Made by a program: the position numbers and the translations under genes. A stretch of DNA of 64,000 nt, from contig NZ_KN360939.1 of NCBI RefSeq assembly GCF_000784355.1, positions 111,021 through 175,020 of the forward strand, written 5' to 3'. The DNA is from Methanolacinia paynteri. GTDB lineage: Archaea > Halobacteriota > Methanomicrobia > Methanomicrobiales > Methanomicrobiaceae. This document shows positions 18,978 through 62,875 of the stretch, piece by piece. Position 1 is the stretch's first letter; each line of letters begins with the position of its first letter. The notes under the pieces were generated by a model. The model worked only from the letters and a program-made list of their open reading frames with translations, did no database searches and had not been told where the DNA came from.

Positions 18978-19541
18978 ATGAGATTCTTTGTTGAAGATGC
19001 TGTTTCAGCGGTTATCGGTGTAATGCTGATGCTTGCCGTTACTATTATTATTGCATCGACTGTGGCCGCCTTTGCCGGTGGGGCTTCAACTACCTTCGAG
19101 GATACTCCTGCTGCCAGCCTTGCGGTATATTGTGACGGTTCGGTTGACGACGGGACTTTCAACATAATATTCGACCATCTTGGCGGTGATAAGATCTCTA
19201 CCGACGACCTGAAGATTATCACCTGGATTGATGATGGTTCCGGTGATCCGATCAAGTCCGATCATACTCTCAGCTCCGAATGTTCGTCTCTTTATCCTTA
19301 TTTGAGGCTCCCCTATGTCTATGACAGTCAGGTGTCTGGTTCTAACAATTCCGAGTTCGGTGAGGCGTTATGGAAACCTGGGACTGTTGCAGGAACTCGC
19401 GATGCGGATGCAACTGAGGAATTTCTGAACATTCCTGAAGACAAAACTCTTGATGATTACGAAGGCTCTCCAGTGGAGGTTACGATCGTATATCTTCCGA
19501 GCGGAAACACGATCCTGAAGACAGAGTTCCTGTTGGAGTGA
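18978..19541 (+). CDS. Archaeal type IV pilin-like protein
   Basis: The 187-residue protein opens with EDAVSAVIGVMLMLAVTIII, a DUF1628-type pilin helix in which the usual SPVIG is SAVIG. After the helix comes a beta-rich domain containing FDHLGGDKISTDDLKII, the family motif H-x-G-G-D. It is followed 6 nt later by a second pilin gene, so the two form an operon. A pilus or surface subunit role is inferred. Confidence 0.82.
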   Translation: MRFFVEDAVSAVIGVMLMLAVTIIIASTVAAFAGGASTTFEDTPAASLAVYCDGSVDDGTFNIIFDHLGGDKISTDDLKIITWIDDGSGDPIKSDHTLSSECSSLYPYLRLPYVYDSQVSGSNNSEFGEALWKPGTVAGTRDADATEEFLNIPEDKTLDDYEGSPVEVTIVYLPSGNTILKTEFLLE

Positions 19542-19547
19542 ATTGCT

Positions 19548-20102
19548 ATGAAATTTTGTAGGGATCATTTATCCGGACTTTCTGAGGTATTCGGTGTGAT
19601 GCTGATGCTTACCATCACGCTGATAATTGCCTGTGTGGTTGCAGCATTTGCATGCGGTCATTCTTTCGACACTGTGGATGATTCCATATCGGCAAATATT
19701 GTTGCTTCGGATTGGGGTAAGGATGGGTCTTTATATTATATTATCTTCGATCACCTCTCCGGGGACCCTGTCGATCTCAACAGTATCGAGATCAACCTTG
19801 CTAACCGCTCCTCTGCCAAAGATAAGACTGTTATCAGCAACAACGATGTTCCTCGCGATAGCGGGCATGAGTATATCGAAAACTATGGGGAGGATGATAC
19901 TACAGTGACTGTCGGCGATCGTTTTAGACTCTATGCCGATGGGTCGGATGAGGATGGCGGTGCAGTCACAGCGATCTACTGGCAAAAGGACGGTGCTGAT
20001 GCTGAGTTTTCCGTGCCGGTTGATGGTTATATCGATTACAGGATAATCGATCTAAGATCCGGCAGGGCGATCAGTGCCGGTTCGATACCTGTGGAGATCT
20101 GA
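19548..20102 (+). CDS. Archaeal type IV pilin-like protein with divergent N-terminal helix
   Basis: The 184-residue protein has the N-terminus LSEVFGVMLMLTITLIIACV, the least typical pilin helix of the set (EVFG instead of SPVIG, with cysteines in and after the helix). The downstream domain keeps the motif FDHLSGDPVDLNSIEI. Partner of the pilin gene 6 nt upstream. It may be a minor or tip subunit; this is an inference from its divergence. Confidence 0.78.
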   Translation: MKFCRDHLSGLSEVFGVMLMLTITLIIACVVAAFACGHSFDTVDDSISANIVASDWGKDGSLYYIIFDHLSGDPVDLNSIEINLANRSSAKDKTVISNNDVPRDSGHEYIENYGEDDTTVTVGDRFRLYADGSDEDGGAVTAIYWQKDGADAEFSVPVDGYIDYRIIDLRSGRAISAGSIPVEI

Positions 20103-20844
20103 CTTTTTTTACGTATTTCGTTCTGTGTTTTCAATTTTTTTTAACTAAATATTTTGGTCTGCTTAATTTCTGTGGGTGGGGCGCGTGCAAATCTTCTCTC
20201 TGTTGTTGGCCAGGATATTTATTGGCTCCCTTCCTTTCGGATGAGAAAAATATGATCTAATTCCTTTCTTAAATGAATATTTTGACAAACTACACAATAA
20301 TTTTAAAATAGTTTGCTAAACAACAATTAAAATTGTCCATCCTTAGACATTGCATCTTTCTCTTGGGGGCTGAATGAAAGATCCGGCTTTTTTAGAGATT
20401 TATGCCATTATGGACGTTTTAATCCCGCAATTTTGATAGGGCGGGGGGCTTGCACTCATTGAGTCTGCTGTCTTGTCGAAAAAAGGGAAATTCGATAATG
20501 GAATTTTTTTCATTATCTCTCTCTATCAACAAAACAGCTGCATTCCGGTTATTATTCCGGAATGCGGTTTTCTGTTCTTTAAATTATTGTTAAAAATTAT
20601 CAATCGCAATATTAAAATATATTTAGTTAGATCAACTTTATTTGCCCACAATGTGAAATGGTCTGGGCCTGCATGGAGAGTGCACCGCAATCTGTCCTTT
20701 TTTTGCAGGTCAATCACCGTTTTGGGCGTGGCGGGCTGCAATGGGGGACACTACATACCTTACATCCGGTGGGGTAATCGATTATTCATCATAATCACTT
20801 TTAGCCTCCTTTCATCTCGCTTTTAAACGAATTCAGGTGTAAAA
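20103..20844. other. AT-rich intergenic region with an inverted repeat
   Basis: No gene is supported in these 742 bp; open frames here lack ribosome-binding sites and protein-like composition. At 20540-20565 there is a 9-bp inverted repeat, GCATTCCGG and CCGGAATGC around an 8-nt spacer. A weaker pair, CAAACTA and TAGTTTG, lies near 20286-20315. The last 100 bp before 20845 should hold the promoter of the PQQ-propeller gene; no unambiguous TATA box was picked. Confidence 0.5.
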
Positions 20845-22329
20845 ATGAAAAAAACGACATTGATGCTATTTATAGCAGGAATGATGGTCCTGGTGCTTTT
20901 CGCACCAGCGGCAATGGCAGCGGACTATCCGCAGGCAGGACAGTTCATTGCGCATTACGATGAGGACAAACTCGCCAAGGATACCTCGTCGGAGAATGGA
21001 GGTACGACTTATTCTGCCGATGAGGCAGTATCTAAGGTGGTAGCGAAAGCCACTTCTCCTGAGGTGCCTGTAACAGCTATTATTACTCCTGTTCCGGACG
21101 ACTGGCCCCAGTTTATGTATGATGAGGAAAATGTCGGGTACTCGCCATGTGACGGTCTTCCGTCCAGCAACACTCCGAATACTTATTTTGATGACCGAGA
21201 AGTAATAGGTACTGTTAATCCTGTGATCGCGAGAGGGTACGTATTTCTCTATACGGGATACTCGGGTTTTGACGAACCAAGCGGACTTTCTACGATCAAC
21301 CTCACATGTTTGTACGAAGACAACCTGACAGTCAAATGGGACTTTGTACTCCCGCGAACACAGCATCTGGGTTCATGGGGTGCACCTGCATTTGACGGAG
21401 GATATGTCTATGCAGCCTCGGACAACAAGATTTATAAGATCCGTGTCTCTGACGGCCACGAGATGTGGAACTTTACTACAATCAGGAACGCTATCTGTAA
21501 CGGCGGTTTGACAGTTAATACCGGCCCTTATGTTTTTGGCAGCGACTGGTATGGTGACTATTACTGTCTTTTCAAGAGCAACGGAACCATGAAATGGGTC
21601 TTTAATAACACAGATACTATTTGGTATGATATGACATATTCGCAGGCAACACCTGCGTACGATCCGGATGAAGGCACTCAAGGAAAGATGTATGTCTGCG
21701 GATGGGGTTATAACAGCAACACATCGTTCACCGGTTACCTGTACAAGGTGGATGTCGCTGCAGGCACTGAAGACTGGAGTTATGGTGTAGGATCATCAGG
21801 AACTTCCGAATCATTCTGCGGCTCACCGTCACTTGATGAGAACAACGTCTATATTGCATCATATAGTTTCAATGGCGATGGAAATCTGTATAGGATTAGT
21901 AAAGACAGGTCATCCATTGTCAGCCGACCTATCGAGCGCACCGACGCAACACCGTCAATTGATCTGGTAAACGATCGTGTATACATATCCGGTGGATGGA
22001 ACGGCGGTGACTGGGGCATTGCACCTCCTGGCGTAAGGTGCTTCCAGACCGACTCGTCTCTGACTCCTGTATGGACTCGTTATAATGAATCCATGGGTGG
22101 ATGGACGGGCTCTGTAACCATTGGAGAAGATAGCGCTGGACACAAGCTGGTCTTTGCCGGAAAAGAATCCGGTGATATGAATACATTCTGCTACAACACA
22201 ACGTATGCACTTTACGCAAATAACGGCACTACGAAGTGGTCCTACCCTGCGGGGGGAGCTACGGCGGCAATTGCAAACGACAAGGTTTACACTGCCGGAA
22301 ATGACGGAAAGCTCTACGTGTTCGGTTGA
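20845..22329 (+). CDS. Secreted PQQ-type beta-propeller repeat protein
   Basis: The 494-residue protein has a clear signal peptide (MKKTTLMLFIAGMMVLVLFA, cut near AMAADY). The mature part is a series of Trp/Gly-rich blades of the PQQ-like/YVTN type, e.g. DDWPQFMYDEENVGYSP, YVYAASDNKIYKIRVSDG and the final DKVYTAGNDGKLYVFG. No C-terminal anchor is visible, so it may be released or bound to surface proteins. Such propellers act as binding scaffolds; enzymatic quinoprotein activity is not supported. It lies between two divergent pilin clusters, which suggests a link to the cell surface. Confidence 0.82.
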   Translation: MKKTTLMLFIAGMMVLVLFAPAAMAADYPQAGQFIAHYDEDKLAKDTSSENGGTTYSADEAVSKVVAKATSPEVPVTAIITPVPDDWPQFMYDEENVGYSPCDGLPSSNTPNTYFDDREVIGTVNPVIARGYVFLYTGYSGFDEPSGLSTINLTCLYEDNLTVKWDFVLPRTQHLGSWGAPAFDGGYVYAASDNKIYKIRVSDGHEMWNFTTIRNAICNGGLTVNTGPYVFGSDWYGDYYCLFKSNGTMKWVFNNTDTIWYDMTYSQATPAYDPDEGTQGKMYVCGWGYNSNTSFTGYLYKVDVAAGTEDWSYGVGSSGTSESFCGSPSLDENNVYIASYSFNGDGNLYRISKDRSSIVSRPIERTDATPSIDLVNDRVYISGGWNGGDWGIAPPGVRCFQTDSSLTPVWTRYNESMGGWTGSVTIGEDSAGHKLVFAGKESGDMNTFCYNTTYALYANNGTTKWSYPAGGATAAIANDKVYTAGNDGKLYVFG

Positions 22330-22353
22330 ACAGATTGATCGTTCATTCAAGAC

Positions 22354-22381
22354 AAAGGATGATTCCCGTCATCCTTTTTTA
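22354..22381 (+). terminator. Terminator after the propeller gene
   Basis: AAAGGATGA (22354-22362), loop TTCCCG, TCATCCTTT (22369-22377) is a perfect 9-bp stem running into a T tract, 25 nt after the stop codon. Confidence 0.7.
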
Positions 22382-23030
22382 ATTTACAAACTCAGGTTTG
22401 GAACATTTTTCTGATCTTTGGTGCGGGAGTAGGTTATATTTGTGAATGGCCGTGAAAATTTTCCTTGCAGTTGTCTCATTGATTTATCCCGGGTACTTTA
22501 AGCAATTTGAAGTGGGGGGTACGAAGGAATGAACCGTCTGTGTGGTATTTTTATTCCCGGAGGATCTCTTATATTATCTTAGAAGCGCATAGGCTCCTGA
22601 AAACAATATTGGGAAAATCAAAGTCCTGCTTGAACGTTTGTTCTTCATATGATTATTGAGGGGGCATGGAATTTCTGATTGATGAAGTATCGGCATATTC
22701 TAAGCGATATGTTCTATTGAACATCAAAAGAACAGGTCATAACTTTACGTTTATTTGCTGGATATTTCAACGAAAGAGGTATGTTCGACTTTTTTTGTTG
22801 CTGATTCCGGGGACGGTTTCTTCAGGAATCGCCGGTGTCTTTGGCCTTTTAGATAAAGTCCCTGACAGAAACAACAGATTGTTTATCTTATCTGTTCCGT
22901 GAGAGGATAAGGTCTGGCCGAAATGTTATGGTAGTAAAAAAGAACGGTTACCTGTGAAAGGTATTGAATTTATAAAGAAAGGGTTTTTTTAATGATTGAT
23001 GCCTCTTTATTTCTTCTTCAAACCTCCGTT
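22382..23030. other. Intergenic region without supported gene
   Basis: About 650 bp between the propeller gene and the end of the pilin operon. A 78-codon open frame (22666-22902) has no ribosome-binding site and does not look like a protein domain. No repeats stood out. It probably holds the 3' ends of both converging transcripts. Confidence 0.4.
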
Positions 23031-23867
23031 TCATTCTGTTTCGATGATGCTGTTGTCAGGGAAGACGAGATCTCCCTGTCCCAGGATTTCTCCCGAAGGC
23101 TTGTGCGACAGTATCCAGTTGTTGCCCGAGCCGAACTCGAAGGCAAATGACTGTGTAATTCCCGCATCATTCGTGGCCGCAATCGCCCATGGCTGGCCTC
23201 CGTCGTCGGTATAGATTTTGAACTGGTCACCCGTGCGTATTATGGTGTCGTCATCCGTTTCCGGGCTCACCTTGGCAAAGTAACCGTAGTGCTGGCTGTT
23301 GCTCAGTTCCACAAGTTCGTCCAGAGTGTATTCTACATCCCTGCCTGGGTTATTGTAGTAAGACAGCTCGCACTTGGAGATATTGCCGGCACTATTAAAA
23401 TCATCACCGATCTCATATTGTGGCTCAAAGGCCCCGGCTGATATCTGTGACCTTACTGAATCGTAATCGACTACTATGCCCATGTCGTTTGAATTGAATG
23501 ACATCTGCAGGTCCTTGAGATCGATCGGGTCTCCTCCCAGGTGTGTGAAAGTCAGTCCGTGCTGGTCATTCACAGTTGGGGGTAGGAACACTTCTTGAGG
23601 AGGGGAGAGTGGCATCTCCATAGAGGGGTTCCCGTAAGGGGTTGCAATCCATGTAATCTTAATCAAATCTCCTCTGATCACGTTTGAATCAAAGTCCAGT
23701 ACCGGCTCTGATAGCACGACATTCGGCCCTGTCTTCTTGTCGAGCCCTATATCTCCTGCTAACCCTGAGACAACCGCCGCAATGATGATTGTCACGACAA
23801 GCATCAACATCACGCCTATCACCGGCGAAGCCGCCTCTGTTTCGTGATTATTCCTTATCTTTTTCAT
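23031..23867 (-). CDS. Archaeal type IV pilin-like protein (last gene of the six-pilin operon)
   Basis: This 278-residue protein is the largest of the operon. The N-terminus has EAASPVIGVMLMLVVTIIIA, the DUF1628 pilin helix, and the beta domain contains TFTHLGGDPIDLKDLQM. ATG 23867 is chosen because AGGAGG lies 7 nt upstream and the frame before it has no pilin leader. It is separated from the previous pilin by 58 nt, unlike the overlapping pairs upstream, but has its own strong ribosome-binding site. Confidence 0.85.
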   Translation of the reverse strand: MKKIRNNHETEAASPVIGVMLMLVVTIIIAAVVSGLAGDIGLDKKTGPNVVLSEPVLDFDSNVIRGDLIKITWIATPYGNPSMEMPLSPPQEVFLPPTVNDQHGLTFTHLGGDPIDLKDLQMSFNSNDMGIVVDYDSVRSQISAGAFEPQYEIGDDFNSAGNISKCELSYYNNPGRDVEYTLDELVELSNSQHYGYFAKVSPETDDDTIIRTGDQFKIYTDDGGQPWAIAATNDAGITQSFAFEFGSGNNWILSHKPSGEILGQGDLVFPDNSIIETE

Positions 23868-23925
23868 TTGAAATCCTCCTGAAAACGCCGTAACTCCTGC
23901 CACAATATGCAGGGTCTGGCGTTTC

Positions 23926-24456
23926 TTATCTCAGGACAAACTCTCCTGTCTGGATCGCCTTTGCACTCTCCTTGTCAAGTATCATGTAACCGACGTGTGC
24001 ATAGTACGGGATTGTAAAGCTAACTGCTGCAGTTTCCGGCCTGAATGTGAACGTTTTGTTCGAGGCATCGTTGTCGTCGCAAGTGAGGACCATCCTGTCG
24101 CCTCCGGTTATGAAACCGTCCGCATCGCCGCCCATCTCGGTGAGATAGTCGTAATCAGGGCCTGTCATATTGTCGAGGTTCGACAAAGTGATACTCTTGT
24201 CATCGTACTCTAACTGTACAAGGACCTCATCTATCAGGAGTTCGTCTCCGCCGGTGTGTTTGAACATGATCGTCCCGTTGCCGTCCAGATCGGGATCGAC
24301 CGTAAATGCCGCATTCGGTACTTTGCTCTCTGTAGAGCTCATTCCTCCTGCAAATCCCGATACGACTGCCGCTATTATTATAGTAACGACAATCATCAGC
24401 ATCACGCCTATGACCGGGGAGACTGCATCTTCGGGTATCGCTGCAATTTTTCTCAT
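23926..24456 (-). CDS. Archaeal type IV pilin-like protein
   Basis: This 176-residue pilin has the leader MRKIAAIPEDAVSPVIGVML and a membrane/polymerisation helix to about residue 34. The globular domain has MFKHTGGDELLIDEVLV (H-x-G-G-D motif) and a run of acidic loops. Its start overlaps the preceding gene's stop by 4 nt (ATGA), so translation is coupled. The conserved Glu/Asp just before the SPVIG helix is typical of pilins. Confidence 0.85.
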   Translation of the reverse strand: MRKIAAIPEDAVSPVIGVMLMIVVTIIIAAVVSGFAGGMSSTESKVPNAAFTVDPDLDGNGTIMFKHTGGDELLIDEVLVQLEYDDKSITLSNLDNMTGPDYDYLTEMGGDADGFITGGDRMVLTCDDNDASNKTFTFRPETAAVSFTIPYYAHVGYMILDKESAKAIQTGEFVLR

Positions 24457-25034
24457 TGTACTCTCACATCCTTGTCAAAGATTGCTTTCTGGGAATTTGT
24501 GTCTACGAGCCTTATGCCGATTATATCGCCGATTTCTACTTCTTCCGGATCAAGACCGGTAATTGCTGCAAATCCATCCCCGTTGCCTGTCGTGATAATC
24601 TGGCCCGGGTTCCAGATGAAGTTCCCGTAATTGGTGTCGTCATCTCCTACGTCACCTACTTTGACATCGGTAAGATATGGAACTCTTGCGGTCACGATAT
24701 TCCCTTCAGAATCGGTAAATGCGTTCTCTACCTTGACCCCCTGCGACCTGTTCTGAACAGGGATGCCTCCCGAGTTTATGTAGCTGACATAGAACCTGAG
24801 GTCGGCTGTCTTGAGGGAATCCCCCGAGACATGCTTTAAAGTCATCACTACATTGTCCGCATCCTCTTTCACGATATTGCATTGTATCGCCGCAGTTGGT
24901 GCTGCATTCTGGTTATCGCTCATTCCTCCTGCAAATCCCGAAACAATGGCGGCGATAATTACGGTCACGACAATCATCAGCATCACGCCGATAACTGGTG
25001 AGACTGCATCTTCTCTTATTTCCATTTTTTTCAT
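24453..25034 (-). CDS. Archaeal type IV pilin-like protein
   Basis: The protein is 193 residues long, with leader MKKMEIREDAVSPVIGVMLM and a hydrophobic helix to about residue 38. The globular part has TLKHVSGDSLKTADLRF. It follows the previous pilin gene by 22 nt and overlaps the next by 4 nt. It has the same helix as its neighbours but a well-diverged C-terminal domain, consistent with different subunits sharing one assembly machinery. Confidence 0.85.
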   Translation of the reverse strand: MKKMEIREDAVSPVIGVMLMIVVTVIIAAIVSGFAGGMSDNQNAAPTAAIQCNIVKEDADNVVMTLKHVSGDSLKTADLRFYVSYINSGGIPVQNRSQGVKVENAFTDSEGNIVTARVPYLTDVKVGDVGDDDTNYGNFIWNPGQIITTGNGDGFAAITGLDPEEVEIGDIIGIRLVDTNSQKAIFDKDVRVQ

Positions 25035-25056
25035 ATTTTCACCTTGAATTCCTAAT

Positions 25057-25554
25057 TTATATGGCGATAACGCCTTCAGAGATGATCTGTCCGCTCTCTC
25101 TCTCTATTACTTTGTAGGTCCCGATCTCGTCGATTGTCAGGTAAAAATCAGGGTCATCCCAGCCGAGGTATGCACCGTCGACTCCGCTTCCGCTGCCGTC
25201 ATTGTCTGCAGTCAGGTAGAACTGGTTGCCGGTGGTGATCTGTGTGTCCTTTGAAGTAGATCCACGTGGACTAACCTTTTCGAGCTTATATATGCCTGCA
25301 AAACTCCTTGTCTCTTCGCCGTTTGTCAGTATTATGTTGCAGTCCACCAGATCCACGAAGTCTCCCGATTCATGGGTGAAAAGGAGTTTGTTGTCTGTTG
25401 CCCTGCATGAAATTACTGCTGTCGGGGCCTTTCGATCCTCATCAGAATATCCTCCGGCAAAACCTGAGACGACTGCGGCGATAATCACGGTCACTACGAT
25501 CATCAGCATTACGCCTATGACCGGGGAGACTGCATCTTCGGTTCTCAATTTCAT
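25057..25554 (-). CDS. Archaeal type IV pilin-like protein
   Basis: At 165 residues this is the shortest pilin of the operon, with the leader MKLRTEDAVSPVIGVMLMIV. The globular part contains LFTHESGDFVDLVDCNI with a cysteine inside the motif region, and another Cys at ISCRAT, so a disulfide is possible. It overlaps the preceding gene by 4 nt (ATGA). Confidence 0.85.
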   Translation of the reverse strand: MKLRTEDAVSPVIGVMLMIVVTVIIAAVVSGFAGGYSDEDRKAPTAVISCRATDNKLLFTHESGDFVDLVDCNIILTNGEETRSFAGIYKLEKVSPRGSTSKDTQITTGNQFYLTADNDGSGSGVDGAYLGWDDPDFYLTIDEIGTYKVIERESGQIISEGVIAI

Positions 25555-26114
25555 ATGACGGTCACCTCATCCGACCAGATGATCGTGTTGGACGGTTCAT
25601 ACACCATGTTAATCTCGATCTTCTTGCCTGCCTGGGGGTGTGCGACATTAAGGAGATATCCCGGACCTCCGGTGAATTTCTCACCTGTGTGCCAGTAACA
25701 GCCGGTTTCCCCGAAGAAATTGTCGGTACTTGTCCCTGTAAAACTCAGAAAAGCATTCGGCGTGTAATGGGCGGGGCGTGTAACAACTGATTTTGTAAAT
25801 TCATAAGAACAGAGTGTGCCGTTTTCATCCTCGTGATAGGACACGATCTTCAGATCTGCCGTATCGATCGCCTCACCGCCTTTCATAGTTGCCTCTACAT
25901 ATGGTGCTATATCGCCATTGGTGCTGGCAATGACATATGCAGAATAGACCTTGAACTCGAACGTGGCTACGGGTGTGTCTGTTGACGAATCCGTGAGTCC
26001 GCTGGCAAATCCCGAGACGACTGCCGCTATAATGATGGTCACTACGAGCATCAGCATTACACCGATGACTGGCGATACCCCGCTTTCTTTTTCATGAAAT
26101 GCTCTTTTTGTCAA
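25551..26114 (-). CDS. Archaeal type IV pilin-like protein with degenerate H-x-G-G-D motif
   Basis: This 187-residue protein has the leader MTKRAFHEKESGVSPVIGVM and the common helix. In place of H-x-G-G-D it has ATMKGGEAIDTADLKIV, so the His is replaced and the Asp is Glu. It overlaps both neighbours: ATGA at its 5' end with the first pilin and at its 3' end with the next. Confidence 0.84.
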   Translation of the reverse strand: MTKRAFHEKESGVSPVIGVMLMLVVTIIIAAVVSGFASGLTDSSTDTPVATFEFKVYSAYVIASTNGDIAPYVEATMKGGEAIDTADLKIVSYHEDENGTLCSYEFTKSVVTRPAHYTPNAFLSFTGTSTDNFFGETGCYWHTGEKFTGGPGYLLNVAHPQAGKKIEINMVYEPSNTIIWSDEVTVI

Positions 26115-26722
26115 TAGATCACCTCTCCGCTGAAGATCGTCTTGCCGCTCGGTATGTGAATGATTTCAACCTCGATCGGCTCGTCACCGACGGTTCCAAC
26201 GGTTATGACACTTCTGAGCGATGCCTGATCGATCGTTGTATAGATGTCGCCCGGCATCATGGTGGAGTTGCCCCAGTATTTGACTGGCTCTCCGTTCGAT
26301 ATCGTGCACGGGTACCCGTTGTTGGAAATGAGAGATCCGTTGCCTGTCTCATAATCCGCTGCATCGAAGTAGTTTTCCGGGTCCATAGGATTGAGAGAGC
26401 CGTCGGTTGTGTGCTTGTAGATCCCTGTCAATGTGGTTCCGTCAATTGTGCGGGTGATGTCGTGGAAATAGGTTATGATCTTCAGTTCACTCGTGTCCAG
26501 CGAATCCCCCCCGAGATGCGTGAAGACAAGCTTCGGATATGTTCCTTCACTCTTCAACTCCACATCAAGCTGCGCAGTTGGTGTTTCCTTCTGGTCAGAG
26601 ACCATACCTCCCGCGTATGCCGAGACCGCCGCGGCGATAATTATCGTCACGACAAGCATCAGCATAACCCCTATCACGGGAGAAACAGCCTCCGAACTAA
26701 AATCTCTATGCTTCTTCTCCAT
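26111..26722 (-). CDS. Archaeal type IV pilin-like protein (first gene of the six-pilin operon)
   Basis: The first gene encodes 203 residues: MEKKHRDFSSEAVSPVIGVM, helix to about residue 40, then a globular domain with VFTHLGGDSLDTSELKI. ATG 26722 is chosen because GGTGGT lies just upstream and the pilin leader starts there; the frame is open further upstream but with AT-rich, non-protein-like content. The promoter should lie in the 320-bp divergent region shared with the S-layer-like gene at 27043. Confidence 0.84.
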   Translation of the reverse strand: MEKKHRDFSSEAVSPVIGVMLMLVVTIIIAAAVSAYAGGMVSDQKETPTAQLDVELKSEGTYPKLVFTHLGGDSLDTSELKIITYFHDITRTIDGTTLTGIYKHTTDGSLNPMDPENYFDAADYETGNGSLISNNGYPCTISNGEPVKYWGNSTMMPGDIYTTIDQASLRSVITVGTVGDEPIEVEIIHIPSGKTIFSGEVIY

Positions 26723-27042
26723 ACCAGATACCACCAAAGGTAGGTATTTTTCCCAAACCAACACAAATTGTTTTTTAACAATTTTTTTTGATAAGAGTTG
26801 TTTTTTTATTATATTTTGATGGTTGATAAATATAGTGAAACTGACCATATTGCCCCAATTCATCTTTTTTGTATCATTTTCAGTCGAAATGAGGAATTAA
26901 GGTTAAATTTTTATTTTTACTGGCGTCGGGGTGGCAATGTGGGTGTTGAGAATTCCCGAGCATTGCCAAATATAGTTTATAAAAAACAAATTTTTTTTAT
27001 TAGTGCTGCAAACCTTACATGGAAGTTAATCCGGGTACATTT
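26723..27042. promoter_or_regulatory. Divergent promoter region between the pilin operon and the S-layer/pilus-assembly operon
   Basis: 320 bp, very AT-rich, with several T/A runs (e.g. 26765-26825) and no supported gene. TTTATAAAA near 26976-26984 could be the TATA box of the plus-strand operon. As both pilin operon and assembly operon start here, it is the natural control point for both. Confidence 0.45.
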
Positions 27043-35935: not shown

Positions 35936-35943
35936 GAAATCTG

Positions 35944-36207
35944 TTACGCCCCTGCCCGGACGTCGCTCAGGTTCAGCATTATGACTCCTGCTACTATTAC
36001 AATGATTGAGAGGACTTTCATCGAACTGGCGGGCTCCTTGAAATAAAGAATCCCGATCATCGATACCAGGAGGATTCCCATTCCCGCCCAGATCGCGTAG
36101 GCGAAGCTGAGATCGAAGTGCTTTAAGGCGAAGATGAAGACCGTAAACGAGATCCCCCAGAGGACGAAGGTCAGTATCGAGGCGTAGATATTGGAAAAGC
36201 CAGCGCA
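35944..36207 (-). pseudogene. SMR-family small multidrug efflux protein, 5'-truncated remnant
   Basis: Reading on the minus strand, 87 residues match the C-terminal three helices of an SMR (EmrE-like) transporter: GFSNIYASILTFVLWGISFT, FAYAIWAGMGILLVSMIGIL and LSIIVIVAGVIMLNLSD. A stop codon lies immediately before this stretch and there is no suitable start. The first membrane helix, with the essential glutamate, is absent and is not found in other frames upstream. So the gene appears to have lost its 5' end at about 36205. It ends 9 nt from the converging pilin-like gene. Confidence 0.75.
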
Positions 36208-36293
36208 TCATGCCGGACCACCTGAATTTTTATTGAAAACCATGTTTTCTGTTTTTACTGGCAGGGGTTATTATTGTGTCTGGGTTATTGAGA

Positions 36294-36378
36294 GGGAGGG
36301 GGAACAAGTCCCCCTCCCTGTGACCCTCCCCCTGATGGCGATAGTCGAAAGTGAGGATGGGCGAGCATCCTCACTTTC
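36294..36378 (+). repeat. Dispersed two-hairpin element, copy A
   Basis: Stem 1 is GGGAGGGGGA/TCCCCCTCCC (36294-36303 and 36309-36318, loop ACAAG). The linker contains CTCCCCCTGATGGCGATAG. Stem 2 is GAAAGTGAGGATG/CATCCTCACTTTC (36347-36359 and 36366-36378, loop GGCGAG). Copies B and C (58285-58370 and 62680-62757) share the layout and linker, but stem 2 here has GTGAGG/CCTCAC where B and C have GGGG/CCCC, a paired change that preserves the helix. There is no T tract, so it is not a plain terminator. Confidence 0.75.
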
Positions 36379-36787
36379 TCCGGGGGGTATGTCCATGTAT
36401 TGTCTGTGTAAAGGCATGGTAAAAAACGCTCATTTTGGCCTTATTTTAGCCTTTTTTGGAATGTTTCGATCACCCCTGGAAAATACCCGCATATCTCGCT
36501 TTTTATCGCCAAATGCCTGTGGATTGCATTGATATAACGGCACGAGATTGCCCTGTTTTTTCAGACGATGTTCACATCGATCGAGGACGAGATCGTCTGA
36601 TACAGGCAATCTATGCGGACGATATTTTCGGCGATTTTGGTGTATTTTGGGATTTATTTAAGGTTTACTGTATGAAAAATGGATTTTTCATTGTGGTGTT
36701 TTTATTGGCTTATTTTTACAATTCAACTGCTTTATGAAGACTTGTTTAGAGGATTTATACAGAGCCGAAATTAGTATTATACTACAT
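36379..36787. other. Intergenic region with a long interrupted inverted repeat (36546-36611)
   Basis: No gene is supported. Within it, GATTGCCCTGT (36546-36556) pairs with ACAGGCAATC (36602-36611), and inside that CAGACGAT (36562-36569) pairs with ATCGTCTG (36592-36599), giving an extended hairpin. A 93-codon open frame covers this area but does not resemble a protein. The rest is AT-rich. Confidence 0.45.
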
Positions 36788-58038: not shown

Positions 58039-58145
58039 TTTCTTCCAAGTATGGTACGCTATGGCATGGCATGAAGGTTTGGAATTGTGCCTTTTGATAT
58101 AATTACAGAGTACCGAATTAGGTAAGTTTTTTCAATATGGCAACC

Positions 58146-58217
58146 CTTGCGCAGTTCGCTCCGCGAACACGCCCTGACCTCAGGGCTTTGCGCTGGCGAT
58201 AAGCCGGCCTTCGGCCG
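58146..58217. repeat. Structured intergenic region: predicted three-way junction plus hairpin
   Basis: Outer stem GCGCA (58149-58153)/TGCGC (58189-58193) encloses GTTCGC/GCGAAC (58154-58159, 58163-58168) and GCCCTGA/TCAGGGC (58171-58177, 58180-58186). A separate hairpin CGGCC/GGCCG (58205-58209, 58213-58217) follows. Neither strand has an open frame here. It sits between element copy B and the first paaK gene and may be a leader or an RNA gene. Confidence 0.5.
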
Positions 58218-61484: not shown

Positions 61485-61725
61485 AAAGAGAAATATCGCC
61501 AAAAAGAAATATAACCATTTTGACTTGATTTTTCGTTAAAAGATTATGTAAATAAGCCGCTATAGGTTAAAAAAATTTATTTAACCTTGTTATTCCGGCA
61601 TTTTGTATCTAAAGATCACCGTGCGGACAGAATCACACAGGGGGTAAAAGTTTGTTGTATCCAAACGATGATTTAATGTATTTTTTTACCGATTTATTTA
61701 ATTGAGTTTTCAGGAGTCTTTTGCG

Positions 61726-62661
61726 ATGTGCAATCCAGATATTCCATGGTATGTGGTATGGGGTTTCGGGGGTCATATCAAGTCCACGGCAACTACGCTT
61801 ATTATCGGGAAAAAATCCGATGTAGAAGAGATTCCTATAGAATCAGTCGACCACCTTCTCGTTGTGGGCGGCCATAATATTCACACTTCCACAATCATTC
61901 ATCTCCTGAGACAGAATTCATCTGTATCGTTCTTCGATGCCGACGGGACTCCTCTGGGAATTCTGAGGCCCTTCGGGAGAAAAACCGAAAGGGAAATGGC
62001 GGAACTCCAGGCCGAAGGTTCGTCCTATAACAGCGCCGCAGAGATCGTCAGGTCATCAATTAAGGCGAGAATTATGATGATCGAAAAAGCGGGAAGGGAG
62101 ATCGACCGGGAGCTCTATTATAAAAGCGAGGATGAGATCCTCTTTACGAGCCTGGAGGAGATCGATTATCTCATCAAGATGGAGGAGCTTAGGAGAATCC
62201 ATAAATTTACATCGGATATGTATTATGAAATAATGGGGAGGTGCCTGAGTCCGTCTCACGGTTTCAAAAGAAGAACATCCCGTCCGCATGTTGATCCGGT
62301 AAACTCCATGCTTTCGCTTGGATACTCGATCCTGTTCGGCAATTGCTGTGTGCCGCTTGTAGGTGCATACCTTGATATCGATAAGGGGATTCTTCGCGAG
62401 GGGACAAATTCCCTGGTTCTCGATCTTATAGATCCTTTGAAGCCGTTTATGGTTGATTCCGTGGTATTTTCTATTGCACGCGAGTATCTTACTGCCGATA
62501 TGTACGAGACGAATACGAAGAGATGCCATCTCGACCAGGGGACACTGCGCTTATTATCCGATGCCCTTAAGAGGTCTATCAATCAGAAGAAGATCGAAGA
62601 GAATGTATTGTCTTACAGGGATTCACTTATAAACAGAAGACCGCTGAAGTTTTCTTACTGA
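61726..62661 (+). CDS. cas1: Stand-alone Cas1-like protein with altered catalytic residues
   Basis: The 311-residue protein is Cas1-like: a beta-rich N-terminal half (TTLIIGKKSDVEEIPIESVD, VSFFDADGTPLGILRPFG) and a helical half with the signature RRTSRPHVDPVNSMLSLGYS and LVLDLIDPLKPFMVD. Of the three metal-binding catalytic positions, the Asp (about 233) is present. By alignment to the family, Glu is replaced by His159 (in LRRIHKFTSDMYYE) and His by Arg224 (KGILREGTNS). No cas2, effector genes or CRISPR array lie nearby. ATG 61726 has AGGAG 9 nt upstream. A role other than spacer integration is likely; this is my inference. Confidence 0.82.
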   Translation: MCNPDIPWYVVWGFGGHIKSTATTLIIGKKSDVEEIPIESVDHLLVVGGHNIHTSTIIHLLRQNSSVSFFDADGTPLGILRPFGRKTEREMAELQAEGSSYNSAAEIVRSSIKARIMMIEKAGREIDRELYYKSEDEILFTSLEEIDYLIKMEELRRIHKFTSDMYYEIMGRCLSPSHGFKRRTSRPHVDPVNSMLSLGYSILFGNCCVPLVGAYLDIDKGILREGTNSLVLDLIDPLKPFMVDSVVFSIAREYLTADMYETNTKRCHLDQGTLRLLSDALKRSINQKKIEENVLSYRDSLINRRPLKFSY

Positions 62662-62679
62662 GTCAAGTTTGTAGAAGAA

Positions 62680-62757
62680 GGGAGGGTTTTTCTCCTTCCC
62701 TGTGACCCTCCCCCTGATCGCGATAAGTCGCAAAGGGGATGGACGAGCATCCCCTTT
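62680..62757 (+). repeat. Dispersed two-hairpin element, copy C (downstream of cas1)
   Basis: Stem 1 is GGGAGGG/CCTTCCC (62680-62686, 62694-62700; one G-U pair) with a T-rich loop. The linker TGTGACCCTCCCCCTGATCG runs into CGATAAGTCG. Stem 2 is AAAGGGGATG/CATCCCCTTT (62732-62741, 62748-62757, loop GACGAG). It begins 18 nt after the cas1 stop, in the same orientation as cas1. Copies A and B are near 36.3 and 58.3 kb. Confidence 0.75.
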
Positions 62758-62824
62758 AGCTCCAAGATGAGTTCTTCCGTCCGCTTGAAATTTTAGATAT
62801 GATCCTGAAGTCTCGTTGATTTTT

Positions 62825-62875
62825 CCGGCCGAAGGGACTTCGCCCCTTTCGGAACACGGGGCGACCTTCGGTCAC
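62825..62875. repeat. Hairpin cluster after element copy C
   Basis: After a 68-nt spacer from stem 2, CGGCCGAAGG begins a cluster of short hairpins: CGAAG/CTTCG (loop GGA) and GACC/GGTC (loop TTC). Copy B has the same CGGCCGAAGG motif at nearly the same distance (69 nt) downstream. No open frame is supported here. Confidence 0.5.

Follow-up and report, generated by a model that had tools for sequence, protein, structure and literature searches.

Three copies of a two-hairpin element lie in a 64,000-nucleotide stretch of the genome of the archaeon Methanolacinia paynteri (the window; contig C40:111021-175020 of G000, a genome of 2.79 Mb). A preliminary description of this sequence had suggested two possibilities, a functional RNA and a mobile palindrome, and the question is which of the two applies. 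We argue that the element, termed E1 here, is a dispersed palindromic DNA repeat that behaves like the bacterial REPs and BIMEs and lies between genes, mostly behind gene ends of Methanomicrobiaceae; we give this reading a probability of about 0.72.

The family was found first by searching the genome with the linker pattern, which yielded 18 matches, 14 of them in a two-hairpin context, whereas the reversed pattern yielded none. From the 14 two-hairpin copies recovered in this way, 13 were aligned to build a covariance model (R1), of which the search with the linker pattern is independent. The three copies in the window (A, B and C) were part of the training set. R1 places them where they had been reported, at 81-91 bits (E 1.2e-17 to 2.1e-15); the remaining matches in the window score 29 bits or less and are mostly antisense echoes of the hairpins of A-C. 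The features are as follows.

36293..36381, plus strand: E1 copy A, whole element (R1 91.3 bits; fold)
36293-36303 (5' arm) with 36309-36319 (3' arm), plus strand: stem 1 of copy A (fold)
36323-36333, plus strand: linker of copy A, ACCCTCCCCCT
36334-36347, plus strand: core of copy A, GATGGCGATAGTCG
36347-36359 with 36366-36378, plus strand: stem 2 of copy A (fold)
36309..36334, minus strand: repeated G-quadruplex sequence (rPQS) within copy A, GGGGGAGGGTCACAGGGAGGGGG, central loop TCACA (sequence; of the type defined in the accessible text of PMC8044849)
58282..58371, minus strand: E1 copy B, whole element (R1 89.6 bits; fold)
58372-58361 with 58355-58344, minus strand: stem 1 of copy B (fold)
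58314-58303 with 58296-58285, minus strand: stem 2 of copy B (fold)
58140..58211, minus strand: truncated b form of the partner repeat E2, downstream when read in the orientation of copy B (profile match 57.1 bits; sequence)
62679..62763, plus strand: E1 copy C, whole element (R1 80.8 bits; fold)
62732-62741 with 62748-62757, plus strand: stem 2 of copy C (fold)
62829..62875, plus strand: partner repeat E3, downstream of copy C (profile match 35.9 bits; sequence)

Folded singly, copies A and B have z-scores of -4.7 and -4.9, and copy C a weaker one of -2.6. Stem 1 of copy C is weakened, the fourth G-run on its minus strand is broken and its best fold pairs the 5' arm with the linker. Upstream of copy A, a small-multidrug-resistance (SMR)-like gene (~35940-36211, minus strand) seems broken: by-eye comparison with the M. 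petrolearia genome suggests that ~65 bp are missing, which would shift the frame. Elsewhere in the window (19000-26900, both strands), many short proteins that resemble archaeal type IV pilins start with EDAVSPVIGVMLMLVVTIIIAAVVS-type segments.

The E1 family and its partner repeats

E1 is built of hairpin 1 (AGGGAGGGGG-loop-CCCCCTCCCT), three variable bases, the linker, the core SATNGCGATARGTCGC and hairpin 2, which has the loop GRCRAG and GCTCC at its end. With a threshold of E<1e-5, the genome that holds the window has 46 copies, the closed genome of Methanolacinia petrolearia (G015; 2,843,290 bp) 63 and that of a third Methanolacinia species (G016) 38. The family is thinner in other genera of the Methanomicrobiaceae (0 to 19 counted copies), and matches in the next family are weak and partial; those of the weak matches that were read directly retain stem 1 together with the linker CCCTCCCCCTSATGGCGATA, followed by a different second half. 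In two g12 genomes (G055 and G117; L261, L262 and L264-L267), stem 1 and the linker are joined to another second half (CCCACGGTCCACTG...), which looks as if modules had been exchanged. Many contigs of the M. paynteri assembly end at or near E1 (C5, C7, C8, C11, C26, C30, C40, C41 and C44), and one copy is carried at two contig ends (C26:3-91 and C40:2-79); these breaks are probably caused by the hairpins or the repeats.

The preliminary description regarded the element as conserved in structure rather than sequence. This does not hold, as sequence is equally conserved: the 3' arm, the linker and the core ATNGCGATARGTCGC are the least variable parts, with ~35 deviations in the 3' arm and linker against ~62 in the 5' arm (two genomes; numbers derived from percentages). 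Across genera, the length of the linker run tracks the stem (3/3 in Methanolacinia, 4/4 in g12 and 2/2 in g13).

Most E1 copies are followed downstream by two more dispersed palindromic repeats. E2 starts CCCGGCCGAGGCTACCCG..GGGTAGCGTCCAGGCCGGGYTATC, and its reverse complement follows an E1-like plan of hairpin, ATNGCGATAR and hairpin; E3 is GAGGCAACCGAAGGGCTNTCGCCCTTTCGAAACCC..GGTCACC. In Methanolacinia, E1 is usually joined head to head with E2 at a distance of 17-193 bp, sometimes with E3 between them. In M. petrolearia, 36 of the 63 E1 copies have E2 17-193 bp downstream in one fixed relative orientation and none has it in the other; in 1000 trials with random placement, such pairs numbered 0.16 on average and never more than 3. 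The composite also forms tandem arrays (L170, L173, L176, L181, L185, L190 and L206), and at L220 E3 replaces hairpin 2 of an E1 copy, the M. petrolearia orthologue of which is intact. Unlike E1, E2 is nearly restricted to Methanolacinia (36, 51 and 27 copies in its three genomes; 0-1 elsewhere). We rejected the idea that E2 is the terminator of an opposing gene, because E1-E2 pairs are found not just between convergent genes but also in tandem and divergent contexts. Pairing of the E1 core ATNGCGATAR with the E2 core YTATCGCNAT inside one composite was also rejected: the variable positions mismatch pairwise in copies compared by eye, and the cores are therefore read as a shared motif.

Part of E1 has been published. 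Chashchina et al. 2021 (Front Microbiol 12:647851, PMC8044849) described the rPQS of Methanomicrobiaceae. According to the accessible text of that article, the Methanolacinia versions have a central loop TCA(C/T)A and an adjacent C-rich tract; rPQS are intergenic, in tail-to-tail, head-to-tail and head-to-head contexts (50/39/11 %) without strand preference; no common function of their neighbours is reported; and hairpin, triplex or quadruplex formation in vitro concerns the Methanoculleus versions only. Judged by sequence, the rPQS is stem 1 plus the C-rich linker of E1, on the minus strand. Copy A fits the rPQS pattern of four G-runs on one strand with loops of 1, 3-5 and 1. The C-rich tract, which lies 3' of the G-runs and can pair with the last two, corresponds to the 5' arm of stem 1 as read on the minus strand. 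The G3+ motif with loops of up to 7 is kept in 79 of 100 distinct Methanolacinia copies (the central loop of copy B has 7 nt), and 17 of the 100 keep the hairpin without the quadruplex motif. Our independent counts of gene context (52 convergent, 40 tandem and 11 divergent) equal the published proportions. The two descriptions thus share the one-strand G-run pattern, the hairpin-forming C-rich tract, the intergenic location, the proportions of contexts and the lack of strand bias, but the published part covers stem 1 and the linker only, whereas E1 adds hairpin 2 and the core. In the accessible text of PMC8044849, we found no description of hairpin 2, the core, E2 or E3, tandem arrays, inversions or a miniature element (MITE), and a term search of that text for transposons or mobility was negative; the open-access literature yielded no other paper on E1 or its partner repeats. 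Relative to that text, hairpin 2, the core, the fixed head-to-head pairing of E1 with E2, often joined by E3, the arrays, the inversion and the capture by a MITE appear new.

Turnover and constraint between species

About 16-18 of the 46 E1 sites of M. paynteri are orthologous in M. petrolearia. Within 235 kb compared by synteny, copy C is not found in M. petrolearia, and the M. petrolearia copies at 290295 and 471072 (251072 within the compared stretch) are not found in M. paynteri. The composite lies in opposite orientations in the two genomes at two sites, 58282 (site B) and C40:184847. Orthologous E1 copies are 76-97 % identical, and a closer paralogue exists in 7 of 13 pairs. At L059/L178, L207/L199 and L212/L205, E1 and E2 are 86-97 % identical beside flanks (≤50 bp) that are unalignable. 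Unshared Methanolacinia sites showed no clean empty site and no target duplication for E1 itself, and neither terminal inverted repeats (TIRs) nor target-site duplications (TSDs) were seen at its borders in this genus. We count this absence, and the elements kept beside diverged flanks, against our reading. Such well-kept elements look like the result of selection, and concerted exchange would do likewise; from sequence comparison, either selection or exchange between copies may have kept them.

A host-selected DNA element would act through its quadruplex, triplex or cruciform at the ends of genes within the chromosome, where it might, for instance, block read-through transcription or supercoiling, or would provide a candidate protein site centred on ATNGCGATAR. 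The lower variability of the 3' arm and linker, the copies conserved in situ beside unalignable spacers, the linker run that follows the stem across genera and the in vitro quadruplex and triplex of the Methanoculleus versions (accessible text of PMC8044849) all argue for it. However, copies are gained and lost between congeners, the hairpin occurs without the quadruplex motif in the 17 copies mentioned above and the neighbours have no common function reported in that text, so that we consider this account rather unlikely. A host role of E1 at gene ends is possible.

Covariation and strand asymmetry

The preliminary description took paired changes in the stems as a sign of conserved structure. 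Such changes are confirmed in stem 2 but not in stem 1, in which the first 13 copies have none, only decay and G.U pairs, and covariation is little overall. In hairpin 2, 63 doubly changed cells were counted in M. petrolearia against 23.3 in shuffles, and 80 against 18.8 expected in G016 plus other genera; these are counts rather than probabilities, as the copies are related and the alignments are fitted to the structure. Slid controls fall far below them. The possibility raised at the outset, that there might be three copies only and no covariation, is thus contradicted by the many further copies and by the strong covariation of stem 2. Covariation alone does not tell RNA from DNA palindromes, and template switching can yield paired changes in the latter.

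Wobble pairs and orientation provide a further comparison. Over both stems of 139 distinct copies, G.T (43) is not commoner than A.C (62), compared with 13 G.U and 4 A.C in the acceptor stems of 19 tRNAs from these genomes, a small control with a crudely set stem register. Thus, neither strand of E1 looks selected as RNA: the preference for G.U over A.C on a transcribed strand that would be expected of a structured RNA is absent. In addition, the U-A to C-G changes in E1 stems have almost no wobble intermediates. Orientation relative to neighbouring genes has no significant bias (24 sense and 16 antisense copies in tandem contexts). The G.T and A.C counts, the sense and antisense counts and the inverted sites are consistent with a DNA palindrome.

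A structured RNA (an element of the 3' UTR or a terminator, or else a family of small RNAs) would fit the strong covariation of hairpin 2 and the many sense-direction copies that begin 10-80 bp past a stop codon. By contrast, E1 matches no Rfam family at curated or relaxed thresholds, and the wobble counts, the 24:16 ratio and the inversion of the element at orthologous sites, site B included, all point away from RNA. We regard this reading as improbable and as the least supported of the main ones still in play, and the functional-RNA half of the original proposal is not supported. The absence of a T tract gives little information on termination in an archaeon.

Mobilisation of E1 and its significance

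Bacterial REPs and BIMEs are short intergenic palindromes, present in tens of copies, that form opposite-orientation pairs and tandem mosaics and are rare between divergent genes (PMC2817692, PMC3733652). E1 resembles them as a high-copy intergenic palindrome with an oppositely oriented partner, tandem mosaics and avoidance of divergent contexts. It differs in its ~90-nt two-hairpin unit, its quadruplex-forming linker and its archaeal host, and in lacking the GTAG or CGTC tag; it carries GTCGC..GCTCC, with GGAGC on the minus strand. The RAYT gene is also absent from the Methanolacinia genomes. A search for the Y1 transposase (PF01797) found none in G000, G015, G016, G010, G013 or G017 and was positive in control genomes; E1 is therefore not a member of the REPs, the behavioural likeness still stands, an origin from RAYT/IS200 is rejected and, within the scope of this search, mobilisation of the bacterial type is excluded. 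The reverse complement of E1 starts with the minus strand of hairpin 2, GGAGC-stem-CTTGYC-stem-GCGA, which does resemble Pseudomonas REPs such as TGTGGGAGCGGGCgTGCCCGCGAA, and the composite arrangement also favours a REP of this type. With PF01797 negative in six genomes and no GTAG tag, a REP moved by a RAYT is very improbable, and its present-day mobilisation in these genomes is refuted, barring an enzyme so diverged that PF01797 would miss it.

A solo Cas1 homologue lies 19 bp upstream of copy C (61702-62661, plus strand; Pfam PF01867, 1.6e-51). We rejected it as the mover of E1: all 28 genomes of the family that were searched carry this gene, whether or not they have E1 (47-91 % identity), and it seems to be without active-site residues. 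At the positions that we take to be the catalytic Glu and His, 20 aligned orthologues have H/Q/N and R/S/Q, suggesting a conserved and apparently catalytically dead Cas1. M. petrolearia has been reported to be without CRISPR repeats.

In G017, a genome from another genus of Methanomicrobiaceae, E1 forms part of a MITE of 386 bp that has TIRs of ~22 nt and is flanked by 6-bp TSDs (for example, ATCTTT, TTAAGA, ACATTC, ATAGTT and ACATAA). This MITE has at least 9 near-identical copies, most of them 98-100 % identical; the family of 386-bp units has ~15 members (for example, on contig C1, L158:1316-1701), and no autonomous parent was found among the TIR matches listed. Methanolacinia E1 has neither TIRs nor TSDs, so the MITE is a carrier rather than E1 itself: it shows E1 captured by a transposon-like unit and is not evidence for E1 moving alone. 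With this one clear capture, the many copies, their turnover in number, the tandem arrays and the inversion at orthologous sites, the mobile-palindrome half of the original proposal stands.

Our preferred reading, a REP/BIME-like DNA palindrome, draws on the family and its copy numbers, the fixed pairing, the arrays, the turnover and inversion, the paired changes of hairpin 2 and the lack of strand asymmetry. The C-rich linker would make the opposite strand a putative quadruplex or triplex former. The hairpins may be kept perfect, and copied as DNA, through single-strand events at extruded hairpins, such as template switching, duplication and, now and then, capture by transposons; copies would survive where they are harmless, that is, behind genes and not in promoters. 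To our knowledge, no enzyme is known to move E1, which counts against this reading. More tentatively, E1-E3-E2 might represent an archaeal class of mosaic elements that spread and invert without RAYT through DNA hairpins read by some enzyme of the host or of a transposon; the published quadruplex motif would then be a single module within the mobile unit.

The G-quadruplex repeat published for these archaea, which has so far been interpreted as possibly signalling in transcription, makes up one half of a larger palindromic repeat. As this larger repeat pairs with others, duplicates, inverts and gets lost between congeners, its position behind genes needs rereading, and E1 offers a test case for the spread of REP-like elements without a REP transposase.
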